From Synechococcus sp. UW140 (lineage in GTDB: Bacteria > Cyanobacteriota > Cyanobacteriia > PCC-6307 > Cyanobiaceae), in NCBI GenBank assembly GCA_945877115.1, contig CAMCQR010000011.1, positions 1 to 43,153 on the forward strand: DNA of 43,153 nucleotides, in the 5' to 3' direction. Positions 1 to 43,153 of this stretch are shown here, one piece after another. The notes below the pieces were generated by a model that was not told the DNA's origin, did no database searches, and saw only the letters and a list, made by a program, of their open reading frames with translations. Position 1 is the first letter of the stretch, and every line of letters starts with the position of its first letter. The position numbers were made by a program, and so were the translations under genes.

Positions 1-3000
1 TCGGAATCGAGCAGGTCGTGCTCGCGGTTGTCCTGGTTGTGGAGCACCACCTGCACCGTGGCGAGGCGCTGCTCCAATCCCTGGCGATCGCCGGCGGCCT
101 CAAGGCCCCCCTCACTGCCCGCCTCGCTGTCGTAGCGCCAGCTGCTCCAGGCCAGAAACGCTTCGCCCAGATCGGCGCGGGTTTCCCAGTGGCCGCTGTC
201 GATCAGGCCCTGCAGGCCCGCCCCGTAGGCCCCTGGCGCCGATCCGAAAACCCGGGCGGCCTGGCCCTCGCGCCTGGCGGCGGCGGCCAGGGGATTATCA
301 GCCTCCTCCTCGTTGAGCTGGGCCACCATCCGGCAGGCCGTATTCACCCAACGCACCAGCTGGGGGAAAGCGTCCCGAAACAGACCGGAGATGCGCAAGG
401 TCACGTCGACCCGGGGGCGCCCCAACAGGGAGAGCGGAATCACCTCCAGGTCCACCAGACGGCGGGTGGGCCCATCCCACACCGGCCGCACCCCCATCAG
501 GGCCAGGGCCTGAGCGATGTCTTCGCCCCCATTGCGCATCGTGGCCGTGCCCCACACCGACAACACCAGCACCCGTAGGTCTTCGCCCTCCTCCTGGCGG
601 TGCAGTTCAAGCAATAACTCGGCGCTGCGGCGACCCAGATCCCAGGCCGCTTCCGTGGGCAGACCACGGAGGTCAACGCTATAGAAATTCCGACCCGTGG
701 GCAGGACATCGGGGCGACCGCGGGTGGGGGCACCGGAGGGGCCGGCGGCGATGCGTCCCCCCCCCAGGGCATGCAAAAAGGCATGGCGCTCGGCATCGGC
801 GCAGGCCAGCAAGCGCGGCAGCAATTGCCCACGCAAGTGCTGCAGGGTCCGCTCGCTGCAGGGACCAGGAGCCAAGGGCACCGGGGCCTGGAGGGAAACC
901 GGTCCTGAAGCCTCCGCCGTCCGCCCCTGGGGCGCCAACGCATGGCGCACCAGGGCCAGGGCCCAGGCCTCCAGCCAGGCCACCACATCGCCGACACAGC
1001 GCCCAGACCCCTCTGGGGGCTCACCAGAGAGGTACGGGGAGGCCAAGGCCAGCCGGGCCCAGCGGTCCGCGTCGGCCGGGTCCAGCCGTTGCTCTTCCGG
1101 ATCGCTCCAGGGGTCGAGATCCAGCCCCAGATCCTGGGCCAGGGCCTGGGTCAGGCCTAGGGTCCCGGCCTGGGGAGCCCTCGCCAGACAAAGCAGCAGT
1201 TCCGCCAGGCGTTCCTCGTCCGGTAGGCAGCCGTAAACATGCAATCCCAAGCGAATCTGGGCCTCCTTGAGTTCGCAGAGATACCCATCCGCCGCCGCTA
1301 ACCGCCCTTCCAGCCCGTCCTCCGACCCCAGGGGCAACTCCATGCCTTCAAGCCGTTCGGCCAGCAGGCTGCGCAGCAGGCCGGCACGCTCGCCCCCCAA
1401 CTGGGTCGCCTCCCAGTATTCATCCAGCAGGGCCTCCAGCTCCTGGAGGTCCCCATGCAGGCCGGCCCGGCCCAGGGGCGGGGTGAGATGGTCGAGGATC
1501 ACCGCCTGGGCGCGACGTTTGGCCTGGCTGCCCTCGCCGGGATCGTTGACGATGAAGGGATAGAGATGGGGCATCGGGCCCAGGGCCCATTCCGGGAAGC
1601 AGGCCCCAGAGAGCCCCACGCCCTTGCCCGGCAGCCATTCGAGGTTGCCATGCTTGCCCACATGCACCACCACTTGGCTGCCGTGGCTCTGCCGCATCCA
1701 GAGGTAGTGGGCCAGGTAGGCGTGGGTGGGGGGCAGATCGGGGCTGTGATAACAGAGGCTCGGATCGCGGTCGTAGCCCCGTTCCGGCTGGATCAACACC
1801 ACCACCGATCCGCAGGCGATCCCCCTGATCGGGAAGGCGGGGCCGCTGGGCCGTTGTTCCAGGTCCCGATCGTTCTGGGGAGGTCCCCAGACGGCCTCCA
1901 GCATCTGGCGGCCGACCTCGGGCAGGGCCAAGTACCAGCTCTCGTAGGTCGCCAGGGGGAGATGGTCGAGGGCCGGCCTGTGGTCGCTTTCCGGATCGTT
2001 GCTGCGGCCGGTCAGCAGCCTTTGCATCAGGGCCGCCCCATCGGCGGGCACCGCCTGGGGATCCCCCAGGTCGTAGCCGGCCTCGGCCAGCCAGCCCAAC
2101 ATCAGGGCGGTACTGGCCGGGGTATCGAGGCCAACCCCATTGGCCAGGCGCCCATTGCGGTTGGGATAGTTTGCCAGTACCAGGGCCAACCGGCGCTGCG
2201 CTACCGGGGTCTGGCGTAGTTGCACCCAGGCGCGGGTGAGTTGGGCGATCCAGGCCAGCCGTTCGTCATCGGGGCAAAGCCGTTGCAAGGCCGTCACCAA
2301 CCGGGTGCTGGTGCCGGCCGTTTCTTTGAACGCCCCCACCCGGGTGATGATGCGGCCATCCAGTTCGGGCAAGGCCACCTGCAGGCTCAGGTCCAGGGGG
2401 CCCAGGCCGATGCTGCTGTCCTGCCAGCTCTGCCGGGGCCGGGTGCTGGAGAGCACCTGCAGCACCGGCACCCCCAAGCGCTCCCACAGGGGCGCCCCCA
2501 ACCCCGCCTCTTCAAAACGCACCGAAGCAAAGCCCGTGGCGCAGAGCACCGCCTGGACCCCTTCCCGGCCGAACCAATCCGCCACCCCCTGCTGCACGGC
2601 CGGTTCCCGCAGGCTGCTGACCCAGAGCGCCCGGGGTGCCAGCCCCTCCTGGCGCAGGGCGGCCAGGGTGGCCTGCATCAAGGCCAGGTCACCCGCCTGC
2701 AACAGGGACCGATAAAGCACCACCCCCACCCGCGGCCCGTCCTCCTGCTGCCAATCGTGGCGCTCCGGGTCGTTGCTCGGAATGACATGGGGCACCTCCG
2801 GCTCGTCTCCGGCCAACAGGGCGTTCCAGCAGGACAACACCTGGCGCAGATTCGCCGGGCCCCCCTCGCGCCAACAGACGCCCAGGGCCAGGGCCAGGGG
2901 CAACGGCAGGGTACCGAGGGCCGCCAGCTCCTGCTCCTGTTCAGCCGTGCCCGCCATAACGAGGAGATGGCGGCGACCGCCCCGGCCCGGCTTGGCGGCC

Positions 3001-3314
3001 CAGCGTTGCAGACGTTCGAGGCCATAGCTCCAGTGACCCCGGCCGCCCAGCAGCCTCACGGCCACGAGCTGGGTGCTAGCAAGACTGCGGCCGACGTAGT
3101 AGTCGATGGCGGCCGGGTGGCTGAGGGCCGCCAGGGGCAGGGCCCGCATCTCCCCATCGAGCCGCTCGGGTTCGGCGGTCAGCAGGCCATCCAGAGCCGC
3201 CAGGTCCGTGGCGGCACTGCTCAGAAAGACCACGGGGGCCGGGGGTTGTTCGATCAATCCCCCCTGGTCGGGAGAGTCGGAGAGGTCCCCAGGGACGGCG
3301 GCAAGGCGATGCAT
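1..3314 (-). CDS. cobN: Cobaltochelatase subunit CobN (3' end outside window)
   Basis: CobN is the large subunit that, with ATP-hydrolysing partners, inserts cobalt into the corrin ring (hydrogenobyrinate a,c-diamide) during cobalamin synthesis; cyanobacterial CobN homologues are close relatives of the magnesium chelatase subunit ChlH. The minus-strand frame is open without a stop from the ATG at 3314 to the left edge, about 1104 codons. The family signature HVGKHGNLEWLPGKG is readable near residues 550-565, and the frame leaves the window in NREHDLLDSD, a conserved C-terminal stretch. CobN is usually about 1250 residues, so roughly 150 are missing to the left. Many antisense frames are open across this gene because of its GC-rich codon use; they are shadows. 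It is divergent from ilvE with 53 bases between start codons. No cobalamin riboswitch fits in that gap. Confidence 0.95.
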   Translation of the reverse strand, partial: MHRLAAVPGDLSDSPDQGGLIEQPPAPVVFLSSAATDLAALDGLLTAEPERLDGEMRALPLAALSHPAAIDYYVGRSLASTQLVAVRLLGGRGHWSYGLERLQRWAAKPGRGGRRHLLVMAGTAEQEQELAALGTLPLPLALALGVCWREGGPANLRQVLSCWNALLAGDEPEVPHVIPSNDPERHDWQQEDGPRVGVVLYRSLLQAGDLALMQATLAALRQEGLAPRALWVSSLREPAVQQGVADWFGREGVQAVLCATGFASVRFEEAGLGAPLWERLGVPVLQVLSSTRPRQSWQDSSIGLGPLDLSLQVALPELDGRIITRVGAFKETAGTSTRLVTALQRLCPDDERLAWIAQLTRAWVQLRQTPVAQRRLALVLANYPNRNGRLANGVGLDTPASTALMLGWLAEAGYDLGDPQAVPADGAALMQRLLTGRSNDPESDHRPALDHLPLATYESWYLALPEVGRQMLEAVWGPPQNDRDLEQRPSGPAFPIRGIACGSVVVLIQPERGYDRDPSLCYHSPDLPPTHAYLAHYLWMRQSHGSQVVVHVGKHGNLEWLPGKGVGLSGACFPEWALGPMPHLYPFIVNDPGEGSQAKRRAQAVILDHLTPPLGRAGLHGDLQELEALLDEYWEATQLGGERAGLLRSLLAERLEGMELPLGSEDGLEGRLAAADGYLCELKEAQIRLGLHVYGCLPDEERLAELLLCLARAPQAGTLGLTQALAQDLGLDLDPWSDPEEQRLDPADADRWARLALASPYLSGEPPEGSGRCVGDVVAWLEAWALALVRHALAPQGRTAEASGPVSLQAPVPLAPGPCSERTLQHLRGQLLPRLLACADAERHAFLHALGGGRIAAGPSGAPTRGRPDVLPTGRNFYSVDLRGLPTEAAWDLGRRSAELLLELHRQEEGEDLRVLVLSVWGTATMRNGGEDIAQALALMGVRPVWDGPTRRLVDLEVIPLSLLGRPRVDVTLRISGLFRDAFPQLVRWVNTACRMVAQLNEEEADNPLAAAARREGQAARVFGSAPGAYGAGLQGLIDSGHWETRADLGEAFLAWSSWRYDSEAGSEGGLEAAGDRQGLEQRLATVQVVLHNQDNREHDLLDS
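84..91. repeat. HIP1 octamer GCGATCGC (one of at least four)
   Basis: The palindrome GCGATCGC, known as HIP1 and highly over-represented in many cyanobacterial genomes, is seen here inside cobN. Further copies are at 28270-28277 (metG), 31659-31666 and 31800-31807 (around the psb32 start). It supports cyanobacterial origin. I saw none in the island right of the tRNA, but did not count exhaustively. Confidence 0.7.
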
Positions 3315-3367
3315 GGCCCCATCCTGCAGTGCGCGATGAGAAGATCGAGCGATCGTCCTTCCGTTCC

Positions 3368-4285
3368 ATGTATCAGTTCCTCCCCTATGCCTGGTTCGGC
3401 GGCACCTGCGTTCCCTTCGAGCAAGCCACGATTTCGGTGGCCACCCACGCGCTTCATTACGGCACCGGGGCCTTCGGCGGCATGCGCGGACTGCCGAATC
3501 CAAGCGATCCTGGCGAAGTGCTGCTGTTTCGCGCCGACCGCCATGCCCGCCGTCTCAGCCAGAGCGCCAAGCTGCTGCTGACCGAACTGAGCGAGGAAAC
3601 GGTCCATGGGGCAATTGACGCGTTCCTGAAGGCAAATAAACCGACGAAACCCTTCTACCTACGTCCCTTCGTTTACACCAGCTGCCTCGGCATTTCGCCC
3701 CGACTCCATGACGTCGAGACCGATTTTCTGATCTACGGAATCGAAATGGGCAATTTTCTCTCCCCCGACGGAGTCACTTGCCGCATCAGTAGTTGGTGCC
3801 GTCAGGAGGATCGCTCCCTGCCTCTGCGCGGCAAGATCAGTGGGGCCTACATCACCAGCTCGCTGGCCAAGACAGAAGCGGTCAAAAGCGGCTTCGAGGA
3901 GGCCCTGCTGCTCAACAGCCGGGGCAAGGTGAGCGAAGCCAGTGGCATGAATCTCTTTTTGGTCCGCGATGGGGTTCTGATCACGCCGGGGGTGGATCAG
4001 GACATCCTGGAGGGAATCACCCGGGCCAGCATCCTCGAGCTGGCCAAGGCCATGGGCATTCCGGTCCAGGAACGGGCCGTGGATAAAACAGAACTATTCA
4101 TTGCTGATGAGGTCTTTCTGACCGGTACCGCGGCCCGCATCACGCCTGTTCGCCAGCTGGAAACCACCGTCTTGCCCTCCCAACGTCCGATTATGGATCG
4201 GTTGCGGGATCGGATGACAGCAATCACAGAAGGCCGGGATCCCGAGTATGACCACTGGGTCACCAGGATTCGTGTCCAGGATTAA
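3368..4285 (+). CDS. ilvE: Branched-chain amino acid aminotransferase (class IV)
   Basis: This PLP enzyme catalyses the last step of leucine, isoleucine and valine synthesis by moving an amino group from glutamate to the branched 2-oxo acid. The 305-residue product starts [12 protein letters not shown] and has the class IV pattern: [12 protein letters not shown] near residues 30-40, the PLP lysine in GKISGAY (K156), SEASGMNLF, and GTAARITPV near the C-terminus. I chose the ATG at 3368 because homologues begin with this peptide; an upstream in-frame GTG at 3329 would add 13 unconserved residues. The stop codon shares one base with the metH start (TAATG), so the two are probably translationally coupled. 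The assignment to ilvE rather than a D-amino-acid transaminase rests on length and N-terminal similarity. Confidence 0.9.
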
Positions 4286-7200
4286 TGGCTGCCACTCCCC
4301 CAACGACCCTTACCGCCCGTCGCATCGGTTTCCTGGAGAGGCTCCATGGGCCGGAGCACCCCGTACTGGTGTTCGATGGGGCCACGGGCACCTCCCTGCA
4401 GCAAATGGATCTAGACGCCGATGATTTCGGCGGTGCGGCCCTGGAGGGTTGCAATGAAATTCTGGTGCAGACCCGACCGGATGCGGTGCAAGCGGTGCAT
4501 CGGCTATTTCTAGAGGCCGGTTGTGATGTCATCGAGACCGATACCTTTGGGGCCGCCTCGATTGTGCTAGCTGAATATGGCCTTGAGGATCAGGCCTTTT
4601 CGCTCAACAAGCGAGCTGCCGAACTGGCCCGGGAAATGGCTGATCTTTACAGCACTCCCCAGAAGCCCCGCTTCGTGGCCGGTTCCATGGGCCCCACCAC
4701 CAAGCTGCCGACGCTCGGTCATATCGACTTTGACACGATGAAGGCCTCCTTTCGCGAGCAAGCGGAGGGTCTGCTCGCCGGAGATGTGGATCTCTTGATT
4801 GTGGAAACCTGTCAGGATGTCCTGCAGATCAAGGCGGCCTTGATCGGTATCGAAGAGGCCTTCAAGGCTGCGGGCCAACGCCTGCCGATGATGGTGTCGG
4901 TGACGATGGAAACCACCGGCACGATGCTAGTCGGATCGGATATCGCTGCCGTGGTGGCGATTCTGGAGCCCTTTGCCATTGATGTTCTCGGACTCAATTG
5001 CGCCACCGGTCCTGAGCAGATGAAGGAGCACGTGCGCTATCTGAGTCAGCACAGCCCCTTTGTGGTCAGTTGCATCCCCAATGCCGGCCTGCCGGAAAAT
5101 ATCGGTGGCGTTGCACACTACCGGCTGACGCCGACGGAAATGAAGATGCAAATGCTTCATTTCGTTGAAGATTTAGGGGTGCAGGTGGTCGGTGGCTGCT
5201 GCGGAACCACACCGGCCCACATCGCGGCCCTCTCGGAATTGTCCAGTACCCTCACTCCCGCCCCGCGCCGGGTGCGTAAGCCTGAACATCGCCAGGAAAG
5301 ACCCCATCTTGACTATGAACCGGCGGCGGCCTCCATCTATGGCGTTACCCCCTATTTCCAGGACAACTCGTTTCTGATCATCGGCGAGCGCCTCAACGCC
5401 AGCGGGTCGAAGAAAGTGCGCGATCTGTTGAATGAGGAAGACTGGGATGGACTCGTTGGCGTCGCCCGCAGCCAGGTCAAAGAGAACGCCCATATTCTGG
5501 ATGTCAACGTCGATTATGTAGGCCGCGATGGTGAAAAAGATATGCACAATCTCGTTAGTCGTCTTGTCACCAACGTCAATCTGCCCCTGATGCTCGATTC
5601 CACCGAGTGGCAGAAGATGGAAGCGGGTCTCAAGGTGGCTGGCGGTAAATGTATTTTGAATTCAACCAATTATGAAGATGGCGATGAACGCTTCTTCAAG
5701 GTTCTTGAACTGGCCCGTGACTACGGGGCCGCCGTTGTCGTCGGCACCATTGATGAAGAAGGTATGGCCCGCACGGCCGAGCGCAAATTCGCTATTGCCC
5801 AACGGGCCTATCGTGATGCGCTGGAATATGGCATTCCCGCCCATGAAATCTTCTACGATCCGCTGGCCCTACCCATCTCCACCGGGATTGAAGAGGATCG
5901 TTTGAACGCTGCGGCCACGATCGAGGCCATTCGGCAAATTCACCAACAATTGCCAGGGGTGCATGTGCTCCTGGGGGTAAGCAATGTCAGTTTTGGCCTG
6001 TCTGCGGCGGCCAGGATTGTCTTGAATTCAGTCTTTCTCCACGATTGCTGTCAAGCGGGCATGGATGCGGCCATTGTCAGCCCTGCCAAGATCCTTCCCC
6101 TGGTCAAAATCAATGCCGAACAACAGCAGCTCTGCCGCGATCTGATTTATGACCGCCGTCGCTTCGATGACGGTGACACCAGCATCTGCACCTATGACCC
6201 GCTGACCGAACTCACGACGATGTTTGAGGGGGTCAGTGCCAAGGAGGCCCGCGCTTCAGGACCCTCCTTGGCGGATCTGCCGGTGGAGGAACGCCTCAAG
6301 CAACACATCATCGATGGCGAGCGCATTGGGCTGGAAAGCTCCTTGAACGAAGCGCTCGCCAGCCATCCACCCCTGCAGATCATCAACACGTTTTTACTGG
6401 ATGGCATGAAGGTGGTCGGCGAACTGTTCGGTTCCGGTCAGATGCAATTGCCCTTCGTGTTGCAGAGCGCCGAAACCATGAAATCGGCCGTGGCCTTCCT
6501 GGAGCCCCACATGGAAAAAACAGAGGGGCAATCCAATAGCAAGGGCAAATTTTTGATCGCCACGGTCAAAGGGGATGTCCATGATATTGGTAAAAATCTT
6601 GTGGACATTATTCTCACTAATAATGGCTATGAAGTCATCAACCTTGGTATCAAACAAAGCGTCGATGCCATTGTTGAAGCCCAGCAGAAACATCAGGCCG
6701 ATTGCATTGCCATGAGCGGCTTGCTTGTCAAATCAACGGCCTTCATGAAGGACAACCTGGAAACCTTTAATCAAGTCGGCATCTACGTGCCCGTGATCCT
6801 TGGCGGTGCAGCACTGACCCCCCGTTTTGTCCATGGGGATTGCCGGTCGGTCTATCGCGGCCAGGTGATCTACGGCCGCGATGCCTTTGCCGATCTTCGT
6901 TTCATGGATGCCCTGATGGGCGCCAAAGAGGCGGGACGCTGGGAAGACCAACAGGGCTTTCTTGACGGTGCCCCCCCTGGTTTCGCCCTTGAAGCCAGTC
7001 AGGATGGCACTCCGGGCGATTTGCCTGACACTTCCGAGGCGGAACCCCAGGGGGAGGGCACCCCACTGGCGGCGACTGATCCCAGCACGTCTGAGGGGAG
7101 CGATAGCGATGGGCGCTCGGAGGTGGTGCCTGAGGAGCCAGCGCTTACACCCCCGTTCTGGGGCTCCCAGGTGTTACTAGAGGACTCGATCCCCCTGGAT

Positions 7201-7989
7201 GAGGTTTTCACCTACCTCGATCGCAGCGCCCTCTTCGCTGGGCAATGGCAACTGCGCAAGGCCCAAAACCAAAGCCGCCCGGATTACGAGGCGATGCTGG
7301 CTGAAAAGGCCGAGCCGGTTCTTAGCCACTGGATCGAGCGCATTCAAGAGGAGGCTTTGCTCACTCCCCGCTTGGTTTACGGATACTTCCCCTGCGGTCG
7401 CCAGGGCAATGCGGTGGTGGTGTACGACCCCAGCGCCATGGCCCCAGGAGCCACGCCGGCCGAAGCCGGACCGGAGCTGGGCCGTTTCCTATTGCCGCGC
7501 CAACGGGGGGGGAACCGTTATTGCATCGCCGATTTCTACCGCGACCTGGCCCCCGGCGACGCCGGCAACCTGACGCCAATGGATGTGTTGCCCATGCAGG
7601 CCGTCACCATGGGGGAAAGGGCCACGGCCTTCGCCCAGCAGCTCTTCGCGGCGGATCAATACAGCGACTATCTGTACTTCCACGGCCTGGCGGTGCAAAT
7701 GGCCGAAGCGCTTGCCGAGTGGATCCATGCCCGCATGCGCCGGGAGTTGGGCTTTGCCGCCTCGGAGCCCTCGGCCCTGAGAGATGTCCTGGCCCAGCGT
7801 TACCGGGGCAGCCGCTACTCCTTCGGCTATCCCGCCTGTCCCAACGTGGCGGATTCCAGGCAACAACTTGCCTGGCTGGGGGCCGACCGGATCGGTCTTT
7901 CTATGGATGAAAGCGACCAACTGGAACCGGAACAGAGCACCACGGCCTTGGTGGCCCTCCACAGCCGTGCGCGGTACTTCAGCGCCTAA
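4285..7989 (+). CDS. metH: Cobalamin-dependent methionine synthase
   Basis: MetH transfers a methyl group from 5-methyltetrahydrofolate through cobalamin to homocysteine, giving methionine. The 1234-residue product has the full modular order. The homocysteine domain (about 10-325) carries zinc ligands C239, C305 and C306 in GLNCATGP and GGCCGTTP. A pterin-binding domain (about 355-620) starts at [13 protein letters not shown]. The B12 cap (about 650-745) is followed by the B12-binding domain with the lower axial ligand H766 in GDVHDIGKN. The reactivation domain (about 975-1225) contains [11 protein letters not shown] for S-adenosylmethionine binding. An acidic, Pro/Ser/Gly/Thr-rich linker of about 60 residues (near 895-955) separates the last two. 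It overlaps ilvE by one base and is separated from cobN only by ilvE, which puts a B12 consumer near a B12 producer. Confidence 0.97.
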
Positions 7990-35898: not shown

Positions 35899-35972
35899 GG
35901 CTCGGTAGCTCAGCTGGTTAGAGCGTGGGATTCATAACCCCAAGGTCGGGAGTTCAAGTCTCCCTCGAGCCA
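35899..35972 (+). tRNA. trnM-CAT: tRNA-Met (CAT anticodon, elongator type)
   Basis: A 74-base cloverleaf can be drawn: acceptor GGCTCGG with TCGAGCC (one G-T pair) and discriminator A, D-arm GCTCAGCTGGTTAGAGC, anticodon loop TTCATAA, and T-arm GGGAG-TTCAAGT-CTCCC. The anticodon stem TGGGA/CCCCA has an A-C mismatch next to the loop. The first pair G1-C72 excludes a typical initiator. CCA is not encoded. A TACAAT sequence at 35880-35885 may be its -10 element. The gene marks the border between core chromosome and the accessory island, and its 3' end overlaps the end of a decayed toxin frame. Confidence 0.93.
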
Positions 35973-36199
35973 TCAAATCCTTGCCCATTGGCGCCAAGGT
36001 GGAGTAGCTGGCTATCCACACTCAGCAGCAGCATTGGTTCCACCCGGCTCTGGCAATCCAGCAGGCGATCAAAGGGCACCTGACTCACGAACACCTCCGC
36101 CTCCGGCGCCTGCACCCGCTCCACCACTGGCTGCGGCAGCCGTGGATCGCCGTTCAGCCACCACAGAACCAGATGGGTATCGAGCAGCAGCCGCGTCAC
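35954..36199 (-). pseudogene. Internally deleted PIN-domain toxin (VapC-type)
   Basis: PIN toxins are small RNases with four acidic residues. This 81-codon frame starts LLLDTHLVLWWLNGDPRLP, a good PIN N-terminus with the first aspartate, and jumps from VFVS straight to PFDRLLDCQS and LLLSVDSQL, the C-terminal PIN segment. About 50 residues, including the central acidic site, are missing compared with the usual 125-130 residue toxin, and the aspartate of the usual DPFDRLL is lost. The frame then reads on into the 3' end of the tRNA-Met gene by 19 bases, so its own stop was probably lost too. The GTG start overlaps the antitoxin stop by four bases, the normal module layout. Confidence 0.75.
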
Positions 36200-36471
36200 T
36201 GCAGCGCCTCAAACAGCCCATCCAGGGGCGCATCGAAATCTTCACTTAGCTGGATCAGGCCGCGCATCGCCCCAGGCGCCGCCACCGGCCGGGGCGGAGC
36301 CTGCCAGGCCACCAGCCGCGCAATCGGCACCCCTGAGCGGGCGATCACCACCTCCTGGCCCTGCTCCACCTCCTGCAGCAGCTGGGAGAGATGGGTCTTG
36401 GCCTGGTGCACGTTCACCAGGCGCTGGTCGGCCAGGGGCCGATTCGTCAGGGGCTCCTTCCTGGCGGCCAT
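36196..36471 (-). CDS. Phd/YefM-type antitoxin of the decayed PIN module
   Basis: Antitoxins of this type bind DNA through an N-terminal Phd fold and neutralise the toxin through the C-terminal tail. The product shows VNVHQAKTHLSQLLQEVEQG and EVVIARSGVPIARLVAW, the standard Phd core, then a tail ending DFDAPLDGLFEALQ. The core looks intact. Start is either ATG 36471 (91 residues) or ATG 36483 (95 residues). A 15-base palindrome lies just upstream. The toxin partner on its 3' side is disrupted. Confidence 0.8.
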   Translation of the reverse strand: MAARKEPLTNRPLADQRLVNVHQAKTHLSQLLQEVEQGQEVVIARSGVPIARLVAWQAPPRPVAAPGAMRGLIQLSEDFDAPLDGLFEALQ

Positions 36472-36485
36472 GGGACAGCGCATTG

Positions 36486-36514: not shown

Positions 36515-36757
36515 ATGCCATGGCCGGGCGGCGCTGCCTGCTTCAACACAGGGGGCAGCTACTCCTATGCCCATGGCGGCATCAGCCTGCAGGAGTGCCT
36601 CACCCCCGTGTTGGTGGTCTCAGGCGGAGCAAGCAATGCGGCCCACTGCGGCAATTACCGAGATCAGCTGGAAGGTGCAGCGGTGGTGGCGGTGCTGTTG
36701 AGCCCTGATGGCCGGGTGATTGCCCAACGCCGCACGGTTGTGGGAGGCGAATCGTGA
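36515..36757 (+). pseudogene. 3' remnant of a pglZ (BREX) gene
   Basis: PglZ is an alkaline-phosphatase-superfamily protein found in all BREX systems. Here only a C-terminal piece is left: CFNTGGSYSYAHGGISLQEC and LTPVLVVSGG match the conserved HGG-LQE-PV end of the PglZ domain. Then, after NYRDQ, LEGAAVVAVLLSPDGRVIAQ and RRTVVGGES match the extreme C-terminal extension of longer PglZ proteins. The sequence between them is shortened, so there is also an internal deletion. The 80-codon frame has an ATG at 36515 but no sign of being a functional gene. It points in the same direction as, but lies left of, brxA-brxB-brxC. Its stop lies just ahead of the next antitoxin gene. Confidence 0.65.
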
Positions 36758-36801
36758 ACAGCCAAATCCGGCCTAGTGTGGTCGCATCGGCGGAGTCAGA
36801 C

Positions 36802-37095
36802 ATGGCAGATGTGGTCGCAAGTCAGGTGTCGGTGCGGGATCTCAAAACCCATCTCTCCGAATGGCTGGCCCGTGCCCAGTCCGGTGAGGTGGTGGAAGTC
36901 ACCTCCCATCGCAAACCCATCGCCCGCATCACCGCTGTGAAGCCAGCGGACTCAGAGATCAGCAGCCCGCTGCAAAAAGCGATTGATGCGGGCCTGATCA
37001 GCTGGAACGGTGAGAAGCCCAACTTGCCCCCACCGGTGAAGTTGCGTGGGCAAGGCAAGTTACTTAGCGACATCGTGATTGAGGATCGGGGTTGA
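36802..37095 (+). CDS. Phd-type antitoxin following the pglZ remnant
   Basis: The product has the Phd antitoxin core SVRDLKTHLSEWLARAQSGE, then VVEVTSHRKPIARITAV, and a longer C-terminal tail ending GKLLSDIVIEDRG that would contact the toxin. I chose ATG 36802 (97 residues), preceded by GGAG at a proper distance; a GTG at 36754, overlapping the pglZ remnant stop, would give 113 residues. The antitoxin looks intact. A PIN-type toxin gene starts four bases after its stop but is broken. Confidence 0.82.
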   Translation: MADVVASQVSVRDLKTHLSEWLARAQSGEVVEVTSHRKPIARITAVKPADSEISSPLQKAIDAGLISWNGEKPNLPPPVKLRGQGKLLSDIVIEDRG

Positions 37096-37099
37096 GCTG

Positions 37100-37509
37100 G
37101 TGATCCTCTTTTGTGACACCAGCGCCCTGATGAAGTTGCTGGTCGACGAAGCCCAATCAGATCAGATGCGGCAGATCAGCACCACTGTTGATGCCATCGG
37201 GGTCTGCCGGATCAGCTGGGCTGAAACGATCGCAGCCCTGGCGCGGACCGAGCAGCGCCACCACCGGCCTTTGAGCCAGGGCCGTCTATTGCGCGGAAAG
37301 CAAGGTGGGCCGGGCGAGCATGGACTTAGCCTTGGAGAAGCTTTGAAAATCCTGCAAATAGGGCACGATTTTCAAGACTTTTCCTTGAAGAGGAGAAATC
37401 CCTCCTGGCACCGCCACGGAGCTGATTGTTGAGCTGGTGCGCCTGGCTTGCACAGCTCATTGGGCTGGACTTTGTCGATAGCGGGGGCAGTGGCGGCAAG
37501 CGGCTGTAA
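37100..37509 (+). pseudogene. Frameshifted PIN-domain toxin (VapC-type)
   Basis: From GTG 37100 the frame reads ILFCDTSALMKLLVDEAQSD and RISWAETIAALARTEQRH, a clear PIN N-terminal half with the first aspartate and the conserved glutamate. After about residue 60 homology is lost and the frame ends at 37432. Pieces of the missing half appear in other frames: TELIVELVRLA near 37416-37448 and AQLIGLDFV near 37452-37480, followed by a stop at 37507. At least two frame changes and a deletion are needed to explain this, so the toxin is inactive. Its antitoxin is intact. Confidence 0.7.
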
Positions 37510-37832
37510 ACCGGCTGGCCAGCAGCTCAGCTTGATCGGTGCTGTCCCCAGGCAGCCACCTGGTGCCTGGGGGCAAGGGCGTGGGGTCGTTGGCCATTTT
37601 CCCTGATTGCCGAGCAAAGCAAACCTGCGGTGCAGAAGTACTGGAGCTCCTCTTGCAGCCCCGCCACCAGTGCCAGCCGCTCGCACTCTGCCGCCAAGGG
37701 CCTTGCAGTTGTCCTTCACTTGCAGCAATCGACTGAGCGCAAGCATTGCATAAATGGTCTTTTATTAAAATTGGTTACTGGTATGCGGATATCACGAAAG
37801 CGTATTATACTGACAGCAGTTGGAGCTTCGAC
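37510..37832. other. Decayed stretch, possible minus-strand gene fragment
   Basis: No intact gene is seen. On the minus strand, joining two frames near 37690-37700 gives a coiled-coil-like peptide (LLQVKDNCKAL then LAAECERLALVAGLQEELQY), which suggests a frameshifted remnant of an unidentified gene. The right end turns AT-rich and contains TATTAT at about 37803, a possible -10 element for the SGNH hydrolase. Confidence 0.35.
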
Positions 37833-39563
37833 ATGCGAGCTTTTTCATGTTTGCCTGGCATTGCATTAGCAGTCACGCTTGCAACAATTGACATTCCACA
37901 AGCTTTGGCCGGGGAAATCCAGTGGAGTATTGAAAACAACTTTAGACTATTAAAAGATGCCCAAGACCAAGATTGGTTAAAATCATTATCATTAAATAGT
38001 GAGAACCCCGAAACATCCACGGTTACACTAAGAGACCTCAAGGGGCATTGGTCAGAAGTGCCTAGAACATTTTATGATGATGCCAGTGGTCTCTATGAAA
38101 AAGATTACATTAATCCAACGCAATGGATAATCAAAGTTTCATCATCAACAGCCCCTTTTGGCTCTATGTGTGAATGGAAGATTATGGATAAAAAAATTAA
38201 TGGGCCATGTCATGATTTTGTGATTCCTCTTAAGTTTGGAAGCAGCCCAGTCACCGTATCTGCCATTACGCCAATTGGTATTGAAGATAAAAGCATTGTT
38301 CAAGCTAAAGATGTTCTATTTTTAGCCATTGGCGATTCGTATGCTTCGGGAGAGGGCCAGCCAGACGTAATCAGAGATGGGAATCTCAGAAACGCTTCTT
38401 GGTGGGGTAGAAAATGCCATCGTTCACTGTACTCATGGCCAGTACTTACAGCGGCTAGATTTGCTCAAAATCACCCACACAATTCAGTTACGGTAGTAAG
38501 TCGCGCTTGTTCTGGTGCTTTAATAGATCAATTAACTAATACTAATGATGATGGCGGCCCTGGCGAATCGTCGCGAAAAGTTAATAATGAGGTTATGCTA
38601 GCGCCTCAACTTACACAAGTAAAAAGAGATTTATGCCTAGGCAAATGGATTAATGGTGAATGCCTAGGGGCATTGCGAGAGCCTGATTATATTCTGCTTT
38701 CAATAGGCGGGAATGATGCTAAATTTGGCACAATGGTGGTAGACGGGTTAATCCATAAAGTAAACAAAGGAATCGAGCTTGATGAAAAATATGTTCAAGA
38801 TGCGTCTAATACCGTCGATAAACTTACCCAAAAATATCCGGAATTAGCCAGCAAAATTAACATGGCATACCCAAATTCATCTGTAATTATGGCTCTTTAT
38901 CCTGATCCTCTTCATTGGCGACCAAATATATTTTGTGGACGAGGTACAAATGGTGGTTTAATCAAAGATGATGATGACATATCTCCAATTGATTTTACCA
39001 TGAATGGCGCCGAAGAATTATTGGCAAAAATAACCAAAAAGCGAATTACTAATCAAGAAGTAACTGCTTTGCATGATGATTTTTATACACGCTTTGTGGG
39101 TAGAATACCTCTTACCATCAATCCCGATGATAATTCGTCAGTAGTTGAATTTAAAAACAATAGGAATTACGATTATCGAGGATTACTCTCTATTGGCAAG
39201 GATCTTGAAAAGCGATATCCTAAAAACTGGCGCCTTGTTGTTACAAATTCTGAATACAAGACTGGTACAAATCCCTTTGAATCCGAAGGAGAAAAGCGTG
39301 ACACAGATCAACCACCTTGCTATCGCCCAAAAGGATATTGCGTACCTGGAAATACCGTAACTGGAAGATGGTTTAATACCATTACTGATTCAATTGATCG
39401 CATTGGCAATGTTTACGGTGCGATGCATCCAAACATCTATGGTCAGCTCTATTATGTCTCCAAGGTTTATCCAGCTTTGCCTAAAGTTAAAACCCACCAA
39501 TTTGCCTGGGGCCTTGATCCTAATAATAAATTAGATCCTGGCATGAGTTGCAAGGTAAAGTAA
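37833..39563 (+). CDS. Secreted SGNH/GDSL-family hydrolase, AT-rich (foreign)
   Basis: SGNH hydrolases are esterases or lipases that act on lipids, polysaccharide esters and similar substrates. The 576-residue product has a signal peptide (MRAFSCLPGIALAVTLATID, cleavage near QALA-GE), an N-terminal domain of about 130 residues without recognised motif, then block I LAIGDSYASGEG with the nucleophile S169, block III SIGGNDAKFG (GGND at 292-295), and block V AMHPN with H532. The aspartate three residues before this histidine in many family members is not seen (G529). Codon use is strongly AT-rich, unlike every other gene here, so recent acquisition from a low-GC source is likely. I chose ATG 37833 because it begins the signal peptide; an in-frame TTG lies at 37746. 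Confidence 0.82.
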   Translation: MRAFSCLPGIALAVTLATIDIPQALAGEIQWSIENNFRLLKDAQDQDWLKSLSLNSENPETSTVTLRDLKGHWSEVPRTFYDDASGLYEKDYINPTQWIIKVSSSTAPFGSMCEWKIMDKKINGPCHDFVIPLKFGSSPVTVSAITPIGIEDKSIVQAKDVLFLAIGDSYASGEGQPDVIRDGNLRNASWWGRKCHRSLYSWPVLTAARFAQNHPHNSVTVVSRACSGALIDQLTNTNDDGGPGESSRKVNNEVMLAPQLTQVKRDLCLGKWINGECLGALREPDYILLSIGGNDAKFGTMVVDGLIHKVNKGIELDEKYVQDASNTVDKLTQKYPELASKINMAYPNSSVIMALYPDPLHWRPNIFCGRGTNGGLIKDDDDISPIDFTMNGAEELLAKITKKRITNQEVTALHDDFYTRFVGRIPLTINPDDNSSVVEFKNNRNYDYRGLLSIGKDLEKRYPKNWRLVVTNSEYKTGTNPFESEGEKRDTDQPPCYRPKGYCVPGNTVTGRWFNTITDSIDRIGNVYGAMHPNIYGQLYYVSKVYPALPKVKTHQFAWGLDPNNKLDPGMSCKVK

Positions 39564-40148
39564 TAGTCTTGATTAACCAAGTAACTGCTTGAATCCTATC
39601 GCAAGCTGGTGTTCGCCCTCGCTATCGAGGCCTCAGGGCCGTACCGGCTTTGCGGTGACAGTGCGCTTCCAGCCCATCAGTACCACCTGCAATTGATGAA
39701 CCTCTTTCGACGCACCCCTGTGATTGCAGCGTTGAGCCTAAGAATCAATGCTGGGCACGAAACCTCTGACGGCCTTCTTTACTCGTGCCTCTTGAATGTG
39801 CCTCTTGATGGCGCTTGAGCATCAACTCCGTTTGGTCATGGGTAAACCGGACGAGGCGTCGGGCGCCGCTTTTGTTGGGTAAACCGCGATGCACCCAGAA
39901 ACTGGCGTAGATGGAAGACCTGTACGAGGGGGCGTAAACTGAATCCGTCAATGTGGTGAACAGCGAGGGTCAGATTTATGCAGGTGATGCATAAATCTGA
40001 CTGGAGACTGGTTACGTTCCCATGCCAGTTGGCAGCTGGGTATGCCAAGCGCCAGACTGCCGCAAGAACGCAGCCGAGCCGCATGCGCAGACAACCGCAG
40101 TGCGGCCGCCACAAGGGCCCTCCCAGGGCAGCCCTTACTCTCACCTGC
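39564..40148. other. Gene-free stretch upstream of brxA
   Basis: No convincing gene is found. Small frames on both strands (39609-39818 plus, 39745-39951 minus) lack recognisable domains and may be decayed remnants. GTGCCTCTTGA appears twice, near 39784 and 39797. A long perfect inverted repeat at 39969-40001 is listed separately. The promoter of the brx operon should lie here. Confidence 0.5.
39969..40001. promoter_or_regulatory. Perfect 14-5-14 inverted repeat upstream of brxA
   Basis: GTCAGATTTATGCA (39969-39982) is exactly complementary to TGCATAAATCTGAC (39988-40001) around the loop GGTGA. It is AT-rich, not followed by a T-run, and lies about 150 bases before the brxA start. It could be an operator, an RNA hairpin in the brx leader, or the trace of a small mobile element. 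Confidence 0.6.
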
Positions 40149-40961
40149 ATGCCCGCCCGCCGCTCCAGTCCAAAGCCCCCAAAGGCCGCAGACGCCAAGG
40201 GTGACCTGACGGCGCTGGGCTTCCGGTTGGCCGAGAGCGGCCCGCATACCAGCAAGACCCTGATGCTTCAAGAGCTGGAGGCCCTGCTGACGGCGGTCCA
40301 TCCTGATGCCCCAGCCAAGGCCTACCGGGTCGCGATCGTGGAGGAGAATGTGCTGGGCAAGCGCACCCTCTCCACCCGCAAGGAAACCGCCTCCCGGCTC
40401 ACCGCCTTGCACGGCCTCGATCCCAGCAAGCCCCTGTTCCGGGTGCTGCGGCGGCTCTGGGCCGTGGATCCGGCAGCGCACCCCCAGTTGGCCCTGCTGA
40501 ACGGCCTGGCCCGCGACCCGCTGCTGATGGCCACCACGGGGAAGGTGATGGTGATGGCCCAGGGGGAGCTGCTGCAGCGATCCGAGATGGTGGCTGCAGT
40601 CCAGGGCTTCACCAACGACCGCCTCAGCCCCAAGGTGCTCGATGCAGTGGCGCGCAACACCGCCAGCAGCTGGACCCAGAGCGGACACCTCAAGGGCAAG
40701 GTCAAGAAACTGCGGCAGCCCCTCAAGCCCCAACCTGTGGCCTTGGCACTGGCACTGTGGATGGGCTACGCCAGCGGCAAGCGCGGCAAGGCTCTGCTCA
40801 ACACCCCCTGGGCGACAGCGCTTGACAGTTCCAGCTCGAGCTTGCTGGAGCTGGCGGAACAAGCCAAGCGCCTGGGCCTGCTCAAGCTGTCTCACGGCGC
40901 TGGGGTTGTCTCGATCGACCCGAGTGGCCTTGATCCTCACCAGAGGGGTGAGCAGCCATGA
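40149..40961 (+). CDS. brxA: BrxA-like BREX protein
   Basis: BrxA is a small DNA-binding, NusB-fold-like protein (DUF1819) encoded first in type 1 BREX operons. The 270-residue product shows the expected helical pattern, SKTLMLQELEALLTAVHPDA, then YRVAIVEENVLGKRTLSTRK, which resembles the conserved ENVL-KRS stretch of BrxA, then LLNGLARDPLLMATTGKVMV. The match is by pattern and by position directly before brxB and brxC. It is longer than the usual 200 residues. ATG 40149 (MPARRSSPKPPK) is the best start; the frame is open further upstream with low-quality sequence. The stop overlaps the brxB start by four bases (ATGA). Confidence 0.65.
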   Translation: MPARRSSPKPPKAADAKGDLTALGFRLAESGPHTSKTLMLQELEALLTAVHPDAPAKAYRVAIVEENVLGKRTLSTRKETASRLTALHGLDPSKPLFRVLRRLWAVDPAAHPQLALLNGLARDPLLMATTGKVMVMAQGELLQRSEMVAAVQGFTNDRLSPKVLDAVARNTASSWTQSGHLKGKVKKLRQPLKPQPVALALALWMGYASGKRGKALLNTPWATALDSSSSSLLELAEQAKRLGLLKLSHGAGVVSIDPSGLDPHQRGEQP

Positions 40962-41515
40962 GCCGGATCGATGAGCTCGCCAAGCGCTACGCCGATCACA
41001 TCGCTGTGCCCTGGCAGCAGGGCCTGCCGGCAGCCAACCGGGTGGTGATGCTCGTTTACGAGAAGGAGCTGGAGCGGCACCTGCGGGCCAAGTTGCTGGA
41101 ATTCGAGCAGGCCACCAAGACTGCAGGCCATGGCTGGCAGCTCGTCGATCTCACCACGGCCTTTGCGGAGTGGATGGGCGGCATGAAGTACCGCGAGGAG
41201 TACTTCGAGCGGCCGGATGACATCCGCCTCAAGCTGGATTCCAGCTTCCTGCGGCACGTGTCAGATCTGATCAAGGCCCAACTCAGCCAGGCCACCGACA
41301 ACGACGTGGTGGCGCTGCTGGGGGCCGGGAGCCTGTTTGGATTCCTGCGGCTCTCGGATGTGATCAAAGAGGTGGAGCAGAAGGTCCAGGGGCGCCTGGT
41401 CGTCTTCTTCCCCGGCCAGAAGGACGGCAACAACTACCGGCTGCTCGATGCCCGAGACGGCTGGAACTACATGGCGGTGGGCATCACCCGCCATCCCACA
41501 GGAGCGGTGGCATGA
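40958..41515 (+). CDS. brxB: BrxB-like BREX protein (DUF1788)
   Basis: BrxB is a small conserved BREX component of unknown mechanism. The 185-residue product starts MSRIDELAKRYADHIAVPWQ and has RVVMLVYEKELERHLRAKLL, then DVVALLGAGSLFGFLRLSDV, then GRLVVFFPGQKDGNNYRLLD, which correspond to the DUF1788 core (a hydrophobic strand ending in G-G, and an FxPG motif). It has no membrane segment. It overlaps both neighbours by four bases, consistent with a tightly coupled brxA-brxB-brxC operon. Confidence 0.78.
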   Translation: MSRIDELAKRYADHIAVPWQQGLPAANRVVMLVYEKELERHLRAKLLEFEQATKTAGHGWQLVDLTTAFAEWMGGMKYREEYFERPDDIRLKLDSSFLRHVSDLIKAQLSQATDNDVVALLGAGSLFGFLRLSDVIKEVEQKVQGRLVVFFPGQKDGNNYRLLDARDGWNYMAVGITRHPTGAVA

Positions 41516-43153
41516 GCCAACAGATCTTTCAGACCCTGCAGCGCGACCCGCGCACAAGCCCGCTGGCCAATAACGGCCAGGCACGGATCACCACGCTCGA
41601 CGACGACAACGCTCGCCGTGAGCTGGAGGGCGAACTGAGCACCTTCGTGTGTGACGGCCAGTACGGCCAGGCCATGGAGCGAATCCTGCAGAGCTACCTG
41701 TCCCAGCAGGGGCAGGCACGCCAGAACGCTGCCTGGGTGTCGGGGTTCTTTGGCAGCGGCAAGTCGCACCTGCAGAAGATGCTCGGCCACCTGTGGGCCA
41801 ACACCGAGGTGAGCCCCGGCAAGCGAGCCCGGGATCTGGTGCTGGAGCTCCCCGATGGGGTGAAGGCCCACTTCCGTGAGCTCGACACCCTTGCCGCCAG
41901 AAGTGGCAAACCGCTGATGGCCGCCAGCGGCGCCATGCCCTCGGGCGCCAAGGACGCCGTGCGCAAAACCGTCCTGGCGATCCTGCTCAAGGCGGTGGGC
42001 ATGCCCGAGAAGGTGCCCCAGGCGCGCTTCTGCTTCTGGCTGCGGGAGAAGGGTTACCTCGATGCGGTGCGCTCCGCAGTGGAAGCAGAAGGCAGCCGCT
42101 GGCTGGAAGAGCTCGACGAGCTCTACGTGAGCCCGCTGATCGCTGGCGCCGTGCTGGAGCAAGACCCGGACTATGCCGCCGGCAACCGTGAAGCGCGAGA
42201 CGTGATCCGCCAGCAATACCCCAACAGCGACAGCGACATCACCACCGCCGAGTTCGTGCAGCTGGCTCGCAAGGCGCTGGCGCCCGATGGCGGCGAGCTG
42301 CCCCACACGATGCTCGTGCTCGATGAGGTGCAGCAATACATCGGTGACTCCAACGACCGGGCCACCGACTTTGTGGAAGTTGCCGAGGCTGTTCAGGCTG
42401 AACTCGACAGCCGGGTGATGTTGGTGGCGTCTGGCCAGTCAGCCCTGTCGTCGGAAACCCCGCAGCTGCAAAAGCTCAAGGACCGCTTCCGCGTCACGGT
42501 GCAGCTGTCGGACACCGACGTGGAAACGGTGATCCGCAAGGTGATCCTGCAGAAACGTGCCGATGCACAGGCCGATGTGCAGCAGGTGCTGGAGGCCAAC
42601 GCCGGTGAGGTCTCCAAGCAGCTGGAAGGCAGCCTGATCAAGGAGCGATCAGAAGATCGCCAGGTGGCGGTGGCCGACTACCCGCTGCTACCCACGCGTC
42701 GGCGCTTCTGGGAGGAATGCTTCCGCAGCGTGGATGTGGCCGGCACCAACAGCCAGCTGCGCTCCCAGCTGCGGATCATCTTTGACGCCGTCAAGGACAT
42801 CGCCGAAGAAGACCTGGGCCGGGTGATCACCGGCGATGTGTTGTTCCAGGCGATGGGCCCAGACCTGGTGAACTCGGGCGTGCTGCTCAACGAGCTCAAC
42901 AACCGCATCGCCGGCCTCGATGACGGCAGTGAAGAAGGCAAGCTCAAGCAAAGCCTGTGCGGGCTGGCCTTCCTGATCAGCCGGCTGCCGCGTGAGCAGG
43001 GCGCCGACAAAGGGATTCGCGCCACGGCCCGCACCCTGGCCGATCTGATGGTGCCAGACCTGCGCAAGGACAGCGGCCCCCTGCGAAATCAAATCGCCGG
43101 CTTGCTGGAGGCGATGGCAGAAGACGGCACCTTGATGAAGGTGGGCGATCAGC
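41512..43153 (+). CDS. brxC: BREX P-loop ATPase BrxC (3' end outside window)
   Basis: BrxC (PglY-like) is a large AAA-type ATPase essential for BREX phage defence. The 547 codons present begin MSQQIFQTLQRDP. Walker A is VSGFFGSGKSHLQKML (GFFGSGKS at 78-85). Walker B is TMLVLDEVQQYIG with D271 and E272, followed by VMLVASGQSALSS as a sensor-like strand. The full protein is normally about 1200 residues, so more than half lies to the right, with pglX, pglZ and brxL expected beyond if the system is type 1. The ATG overlaps the brxB stop (ATGA). GC content is like the core genome and unlike the SGNH hydrolase. Confidence 0.9.
   Translation, partial: MSQQIFQTLQRDPRTSPLANNGQARITTLDDDNARRELEGELSTFVCDGQYGQAMERILQSYLSQQGQARQNAAWVSGFFGSGKSHLQKMLGHLWANTEVSPGKRARDLVLELPDGVKAHFRELDTLAARSGKPLMAASGAMPSGAKDAVRKTVLAILLKAVGMPEKVPQARFCFWLREKGYLDAVRSAVEAEGSRWLEELDELYVSPLIAGAVLEQDPDYAAGNREARDVIRQQYPNSDSDITTAEFVQLARKALAPDGGELPHTMLVLDEVQQYIGDSNDRATDFVEVAEAVQAELDSRVMLVASGQSALSSETPQLQKLKDRFRVTVQLSDTDVETVIRKVILQKRADAQADVQQVLEANAGEVSKQLEGSLIKERSEDRQVAVADYPLLPTRRRFWEECFRSVDVAGTNSQLRSQLRIIFDAVKDIAEEDLGRVITGDVLFQAMGPDLVNSGVLLNELNNRIAGLDDGSEEGKLKQSLCGLAFLISRLPREQGADKGIRATARTLADLMVPDLRKDSGPLRNQIAGLLEAMAEDGTLMKVGDQ

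Follow-up and report, generated by a model that had tools for sequence, protein, structure and literature searches.

How is a phage defence operon at the end of a picocyanobacterial contig controlled, and is it whole? The question is raised by contig C11 of an assembly of Synechococcus sp. UW140 (GenBank assembly GCA_945877115.1, contig CAMCQR010000011.1; 2.71 Mb in 185 contigs, 95% complete). We analysed the entire contig of 43153 bp, which we call the window. Its last three genes belong to a bacteriophage exclusion (BREX) operon, and the contig end interrupts the third of them, brxC. A short palindrome, TATGC-N7-GCATA, precedes the operon. The best joint explanation, and one in which we have good confidence, is that the window holds the first half of a type 1 BREX operon, an operator for a LysR-type regulator acting in trans, and so a predicted member of a wider defence regulon. 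In what follows genomes, contigs and loci carry the prefixes G, C and L; G000 is the genome of the window.

That the window genes belong to BREX type 1 is nearly certain. The initial annotation had read three overlapping genes as brxA, brxB and brxC in the type 1 order, and PADLOC models of all three families bear it out (Table 1). Each adjacent pair overlaps by four bases on the plus strand, and the incomplete BrxC aligns with positions 7-538 of the 1146 in its model. The annotation also found that the first protein matches BrxA loosely. The Pfam result accounts for this remark, with BrxA below cut-off (E 0.0054) and BrxB above it, and for such general models the remark stands; the PADLOC matches of all three proteins go far beyond chance. 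A structural comparison of this protein with BrxA had been suggested too, and its result agrees with PADLOC. An AlphaFold model built on 14 sequences (mean predicted local distance difference test score 87.8) was compared with solved structures by Foldseek, and BrxA itself, 7zge_A, ranked first (E 8.2e-4, probability 1.00, 19% identity, template modelling scores 0.53/0.69). A sequence-profile search of the PDB with BrxA gave no match. The window copy thus shares gene order, gene families and the BrxA fold with BREX type 1 (brxA-brxB-brxC-pglX-pglZ-brxL) and differs in being cut by the contig end.

Among its relatives this operon does not stand out: its branch of BREX is already known. We scanned one genome per species, 84,980 species in all, with the 547 residues of BrxC. 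This returned 27 loci, six of them picocyanobacterial (95-97% identity) and 21 from the Clostridia, Planctomycetota, Gemmatimonadota, Acidobacteria and others (46-65%). In ten of the 27 the DNA extends from brxC through pglX and pglZ to a BrxL match, the type 1 order; here pglX and pglZ are either matched or genes of that size, and cargo is sometimes present as well. Most of the others end before brxL, and in three (L038, L039, L040) the order is ambiguous in quick gene calls. All five cyanobacterial copies that extend far enough have pglX after brxC (L025, L026, L027, L030, L073); four of these continue with pglZ and three with brxL. Three picocyanobacterial PglX proteins were tested and match PADLOC PDLC02528, and the PglZ tested, one whole and one partial, match PDLC02566. 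Eight plasmid records also match BrxC, including ones from Deinococcus and Runella. The Deinococcus NW-56 plasmid stretch has brxC, a helicase and an N-6 methylase, with no pglZ annotated. On the Runella plasmid brxL is present, the gene in the place of brxA is annotated as a hypothetical protein, and PglZ as "BREX-1 system phosphatase PglZ type B". The branch is probably this "PglZ type B", a label taken from one annotated relative with 36% BrxC identity. The earlier suspicion of a divergent cyanobacterial branch does not hold. Judged by these matches across many phyla and on plasmids, and by its having PADLOC models of its own, the branch is a cosmopolitan part of BREX type 1.

Two other features of the cyanobacterial copies deserve mention. 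Among five picocyanobacterial copies PglX is 51-72% identical and BrxC 85-97%, a difference that would fit an exchange of this specificity protein. The cyanobacterial relatives also differ from type 1 BREX in the cargo they carry, and one such cargo lies inside the operon after pglX and before pglZ: the PADLOC candidate system PDC-M28A-B-C (L027 9695-13019, and L074).

If the genes are ordinary, the sequence in front of them is not. The palindrome is exact and lies 172-173 bp before brxA in all five leaders of the window's clade that we examined (the window, L026, L027, L028 and L029). Upstream of it the leaders are unrelated, save for about 40 bp common to L028 and L029. The same palindrome precedes brxA of another BREX clade on the genome's own contig C130, and among 13 leaders of that second clade eight have the exact site and two have it with one mismatch. 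Across 42 genomes of the genus we counted 102 sites in 30 genomes, as opposed to nine sites in eight genomes for a spacing control with N6 in place of N7, and two sites for the reversed N7 pattern. The ends of the spacer, which were no part of the search pattern, are also constrained: its first base is a purine and its last a pyrimidine (R...Y) in 45/45 sites linked to defence genes, though orthologous sites among these are not independent, and in 87% of the remaining sites tied to neither defence nor LysR genes. G000 has six sites, before brxA (C11), brxA (C130), an HsdM-like gene (C53) and a LysR gene (C48), and two unassigned ones on C87 and C114. We believe the palindrome is probably an operator for a transcription factor.

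Could it instead be a place where defence cassettes insert? With its short inverted arms around 7 variable bp, which would be the overlap, TATGC-N7-GCATA resembles the core site of a tyrosine recombinase. BREX copies also lose DNA similarity near it, the window's at 40042-40046 and the longest-matching pair some 40 bp past the site. However, the complete BREX contig G044:C132 has a single site (at 1204) and no second one, and the six sites of G000 share no repeated spacer. The R...Y ends in every defence-linked site, and the presence of the site at some LysR promoters, are likewise at odds with a recombination core. Nor is there a copy of the tRNA gene upstream of the operon that could mark an island border, as no exact match of at least 14 bases to it occurs in the rest of the window or in ten loci of the same genome. 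We rejected the palindrome as an att site since no spacers are paired, and regard a recombinase site as very improbable.

The genes that follow the sites point to what such an operator would control. We examined 105 distinct cyanobacterial sites, a part of those listed, drawn from the 42 genomes and four more reached through loci; near-identical contexts were merged and the non-cyanobacterial L042 was dropped. Defence genes follow 45 of the 105 and LysR genes follow seven. The 45 comprise 11 SNF2 helicases of Hma/DISARM type (these match several models), 11 HsdM, 11 BrxA, three DUF499/HmaC, two HsdR-like, two DruE, two AbiEi, and one each of BrxE, an Avs-like protein and Cas3. These labels describe the first gene only; 22 come from a direct PADLOC or Pfam match and 23 from membership of a BLAST cluster. 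In four batches PADLOC matched genes downstream of 8/10, 3/10, 1/2 and 9/10 sites. The 8/10 batch followed the order of the loci, three of which were passed over for want of a clear downstream gene, and the later ones were picked by hand from clusters, with 3/10 coming from unlabelled clusters and 9/10 from mostly expected ones. As controls, PADLOC matched 0/8 genes at six of the nine N6 sites and 0/24 genes of window positions 1-36000. A cluster of ResIII helicase-like genes behind six sites was not counted as defence, for PADLOC had no match to the two members L178 and L153.

The candidate regulator comes from the genes beside the sites. Some of these form a divergent family of LysR type; Pfam LysR_substrate is found in four of them and HTH_1 in one of the four, and for a further member, L107, Pfam gave no match. 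The profile of the family matches NtcB in 8h3v (E 9.5e-7), and a single member protein searched by sequence had no match in the PDB. LysR regulators recognise an operator box of the form T-N11-A, and the TGC-N7-GCA dyad fits it. The site stands at the promoters of some stand-alone members, including the one on C48 (G000:C48:17120-17986). Strong members of the family, meaning E < 1e-40, a cut chosen after the list had been inspected, occur in 24 of the 30 genomes with sites and in none of the 12 without (Fisher p 1.7e-6, or 1.9e-6 for genomes at least 90% complete, both uncorrected for phylogeny). In our view the palindrome is most likely bound by a regulator of the LysR type.

Several facts speak against so simple a picture, and they should be stated together. 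Three of the 13 leaders of the second BREX clade lack the site; among 11 stretches from other BREX branches, some of which may miss the leader, eight have no site or one with two mismatches, one has an exact site and two have one mismatch, one of these lying 1.2 kb from brxA. As many as 53 of the 105 sites are tied to neither defence nor LysR genes, and the genes beside them include RTX/crystallin-like, Wzz-like, acyltransferase and integrase-like ones and others without a label; some of these sites lie inside coding sequence. The first-gene labelling and the post hoc, phylogenetically uncorrected nature of the co-occurrence test belong here as well. At E 0.001 weak LysR matches do appear in three of the 12 genomes without sites (G002, G005, G016), and six genomes with sites have no strong member (G001, G003, G015, G021, G024, G026), though two of these, G001 and G015, have a LysR-like gene directly beside a site. 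Just 3/24 strong LysR loci have the exact site and two more have it with one mismatch, so self-control is not universal. Among the genomes of the second-clade leaders that lack the site, G001 has only a broken stand-alone member and G015 has no strong one; the third such genome, G023, does have a strong member.

These facts leave room for a different view, that the operator is real while some other regulator binds it. The LysR genes would then merely travel with the sites in certain lineages, or local regulators would each use the site with no coordinated regulon. The six genomes with sites and no strong member, and a co-occurrence figured without phylogenetic control, suit this view. So do nine defence-linked sites with a LysR-like gene immediately upstream (L087, L092, L093, L100, L156, L157, L167, L176, L187); these genes are more distant members found by an iterated HMM profile alone, and to judge by their position some control is probably local. 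Against it, the same iterated profile detected no LysR-like gene beside the site at the 11 BREX loci of the site set, so a regulator there must act in trans, if at all. In addition stand-alone LysR genes, that of C48 included, carry the site themselves. We think this alternative rather unlikely, though less so than a recombinase site, and we return to the LysR-type regulator.

Our proposal for the mechanism is as follows. By analogy with studied type 1 systems, host DNA would be marked through methylation by PglX, and BrxA, BrxB, the ATPase BrxC, PglZ and BrxL would help to keep unmarked phage DNA from replicating. These predicted roles in site-specific DNA methylation and phage restriction are read from the families to which the proteins belong; the contig stops short of the operon's second half. 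A LysR-type regulator, for example the C48 protein with the same site at its own promoter, would bind the palindrome in trans and would activate or repress the operon. The position of this site before genes of many unrelated kinds of defence system in the genus leads us to propose a shared defence regulon. The claim that a LysR-type regulator coordinates many defence systems has, we feel, an even chance of being right. The same balance applies to the fuller version, in which Cyanobium-like picocyanobacteria would have a LysR family with the operator TATGCR-N5-YGCATA and a regulon spanning the genus, controlled partly in trans and partly by local copies. Equally open to either outcome is its proposed scope of BREX (types 1 and 6), type I restriction-modification (R-M), DISARM, Hma/DUF499, Druantia, a Cas3-bearing CRISPR locus, AbiE and perhaps surface proteins. 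Newly acquired systems would join such a regulon by the operator carried in their leader.

It is worth realizing what such a regulon would mean. How bacteria turn many unrelated antiphage defences on and off in concert is an open question. One short operator before the first genes of at least eight system types, as labelled by those first genes, together with a candidate regulator that tracks it across genomes, would make the question directly testable. If the proposal is true, the operator is also a sequence handle by which defence genes not yet known could be found, and some of the unassigned site-linked genes are candidates.

Regulators of defence are known elsewhere, and the comparison shows both what is shared and what is not. 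PMC9122601 (compare PMC9122589) describes BrxR, a WYL-domain protein that controls BREX and other defence islands. According to PMC9122601 it resembles our case in acting on an inverted repeat before brxA and in belonging to a family found with many defence systems; it differs in being a WYL protein encoded in the island it controls, our candidate being of LysR type and mostly encoded elsewhere. Pfam found no WYL domain among the upstream genes tested (window 37746-39563, the relics, the L026 Mrr gene and a 161-aa gene of L027). LysR is never mentioned in the main texts of PMC9122601 and PMC12839542, the latter a treatment of BREX diversity. RptR, as portrayed in parts of PMC12255303, represses a type I R-M island through a small palindromic operator, and regulator and site are conserved with type I R-M in many genomes. 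Its TAGCTA motif stands in direct repeats, and it is a small repressor tied to type I R-M, in contrast to the one 17-bp site and many system types here. Sections of PMC11888443 present Gac/Rsm as one trans-acting system that co-controls many unrelated defences; it is RNA-binding, post-transcriptional and found in Pseudomonas, and what we predict is a DNA operator used by picocyanobacteria.

Of the LysR proteins of cyanobacteria, NtcB matches the profile of our candidate family, and the T-N11-A form is that of LysR regulators. The candidate family is divergent in sequence, as the failure of a single sequence to match the PDB indicates, and has many sites before defence genes. Among the literature matches listed, consisting of titles and the starts of abstracts and mostly non-subscription, none reports a LysR-controlled or shared-operator defence regulon in cyanobacteria.

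The remaining question is whether the operon is whole. The initial annotation placed the operon at the right edge of an island, and that edge is simply the end of contig C11 at 43153, with no biological meaning. We did not find the remainder of this brxC on any contig of the assembly. Elsewhere in the assembly there is no clade pglX beyond a weak 30-residue PglX-like match on contig C108, and no clade pglZ save a relic inside the window; both absences count against a complete operon. Other BREX pieces do exist in the genome. Contig C130 has brxABC and C139 has pglX-pglZ-brxL, and we rejected both as the missing half since they belong to another BREX branch (the C130 BrxC is 25% identical to the window's). 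Contig C79 (L008) has SLFN/AlbA-like, pglZ, Fic and brxL genes at 24-7727. A join of C11 with C79 was rejected as well, for its PglZ matches the clade model at E 7e-13 when full-length clade members reach 1e-242 or better, and its BrxL is 35% identical to clade BrxL. The BREX end on C79 adjoins chromosomal genes named from their open reading frames, such as mazG-like and carbonic-anhydrase-like ones.

One could conclude that the operon is dying or truncated and that brxABC are leftovers with no functional second half. That the assembly is 95% complete and yet has neither a pglX nor a pglZ of this clade fits the idea (no search was aimed at the clade's brxL). So does the scar of pglZ, phd and PIN-like sequence 3 kb upstream, and so does the weak C-terminal PglX relic on C108, which sits beside the same minus-strand phd/PIN-like pair that the window has. 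On the other side, each of the three frames stays open, with 88-97% identity to its counterparts in the picocyanobacterial relatives, and the contig ends in the middle of brxC with its frame unbroken. The variability of PglX would also tend to break metagenome contigs at this point, if the assembly is, as it seems to be, a metagenome bin. We consider a truncated operon unlikely and retain the reading of an operon interrupted by the contig end.

The scar itself is informative. From 36666 to 37245 (580 bp) the window has 92-94% DNA identity with L073 and L075, and similarity to intact copies ends at 37245. The DNA of the pglZ relic is made up of two pieces 86-96% identical to cyanobacterial copies. 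The intact layout is seen in L075, a contig from the same genome as the Synechococcus UW140 metagenome-assembled genome locus L025; there pglZ, phd, PIN-like gene and brxL follow one another in this order and overlap. In L073 the order is pglZ, an ATPase-like gene (424 aa), a gene for a 200-aa protein, a second pglZ 3' end, phd, PIN-like gene and brxL; L072 has 424-aa and 219-aa proteins of the same two families in that place and lacks phd-PIN. The cyanobacterial relatives thus depart from type 1 BREX in carrying phd-PIN or an ATPase and a protein of about 200 aa between pglZ and brxL. PIN endoRNases have already been noted as occasional BREX auxiliaries in portions of PMC12839542. The PIN and ATPase labels come from the near-cut-off Pfam match to the gene at 37079, from similarity and from reading by eye. 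In L073 the pglZ 3' end occurs twice (1068-1556 and 3602-5941) with the ATPase-like and 200-aa genes between, and cargo seems to enter between pglZ and brxL along with a duplicated pglZ end. On the strength of these alignments, we take 36524-37245 to be what an earlier BREX copy left behind; this scar runs on the same strand as the present brxA and lies 3 kb upstream of it. It lies beside the present operon and downstream of tRNA-Met, so the spot appears to have been used for BREX more than once. A broken pglZ of the window's clade also occurs in another genome (L071 1601-2298, G044:C6), and such scars are therefore not unique to the window.

Table 1. Features of the window upstream of and within the BREX operon
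Feature	Position	Strand	Evidence and remarks
tRNA-Met (CAT)	35899..35972	+	ARAGORN
PIN-like gene, second	35954..36199	-	named by eye, Pfam gave no match; lacks an internal part of the 130-aa copy on C108
phd antitoxin, second	36196..36483	-	Pfam PhdYeFM_antitox 1.1e-7; 88% identical to the C108 copy
pglZ 3' end relic, same BREX clade	36524..36757	+	internal deletion; tblastn 45% over 128 positions, E 9e-20
phd antitoxin, intact, 113 aa	36754..37095	+	Pfam PhdYeFM_antitox 3.9e-7; 93% identical to L075 phd (tblastn)
PIN-like toxin gene, 5' third	37079..37245	+	Pfam PIN 2.4e-4, narrowly under cut-off
GDSL-like hydrolase, outside BREX	37746..39563	+	Pfam Lipase_GDSL 4.4e-5
Palindromic candidate operator TATGC-N7-GCATA	39977..39993	.	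172 bp before the brxA start
Conserved leader of the operon	40042..40148	+	blastn to four relatives starts at 40042-40046; alignment
brxA	40149..40961	+	270 aa; PADLOC PDLC02450 BrxA 3.2e-83; model matches BrxA 7zge_A
brxB	40958..41515	+	185 aa; PADLOC PDLC02469 BrxB 2.4e-72; Pfam BrxB 2.1e-10
brxC	41512..43153	+	first 547 codons, open at the contig end; PADLOC PDLC02489 BrxC 3e-212

The other upstream elements that had been noticed before the operon are all present. ARAGORN confirms the tRNA as tRNA-Met, the supposed foreign gene encodes a GDSL-like hydrolase, and the toxin-antitoxin relics are two Phd genes recognised by Pfam, each beside a partly deleted PIN-like gene. When we looked for a type II Phd/PIN system, both phd genes proved open and a complete toxin was absent. 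The minus-strand pair (35954-36483) has a longer relative on C108, where it adjoins the weak PglX relic; by blastn the window pieces 36008-36076 and 36070-36419 correspond to C108 1767-1835 and 1990-2340.

Some of the sites outside the named defence systems are of interest in their own right. One site-linked cluster (L163, L177, L114, L174, L088, L171) includes RTX-like (L163) and crystallin-like (L088) genes, and a Wzz-like gene (L146) and an acyltransferase/SGNH gene (L188) are linked to further sites; surface functions are possibly under the same site. A variant of the N7 site with the spacer GGAATCT or GGGATCT lies, in several genomes, inside an open frame of about 566 codons (L129, L133, L140, L198), so not every site is a promoter site. 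Downstream of the N7 site on the genome's own contig C114 (L172), positions 2237-4866 hold small genes and a 367-aa RecF/OLD-like ATPase, recognised by eye, and this stretch is a possible unnamed defence locus.

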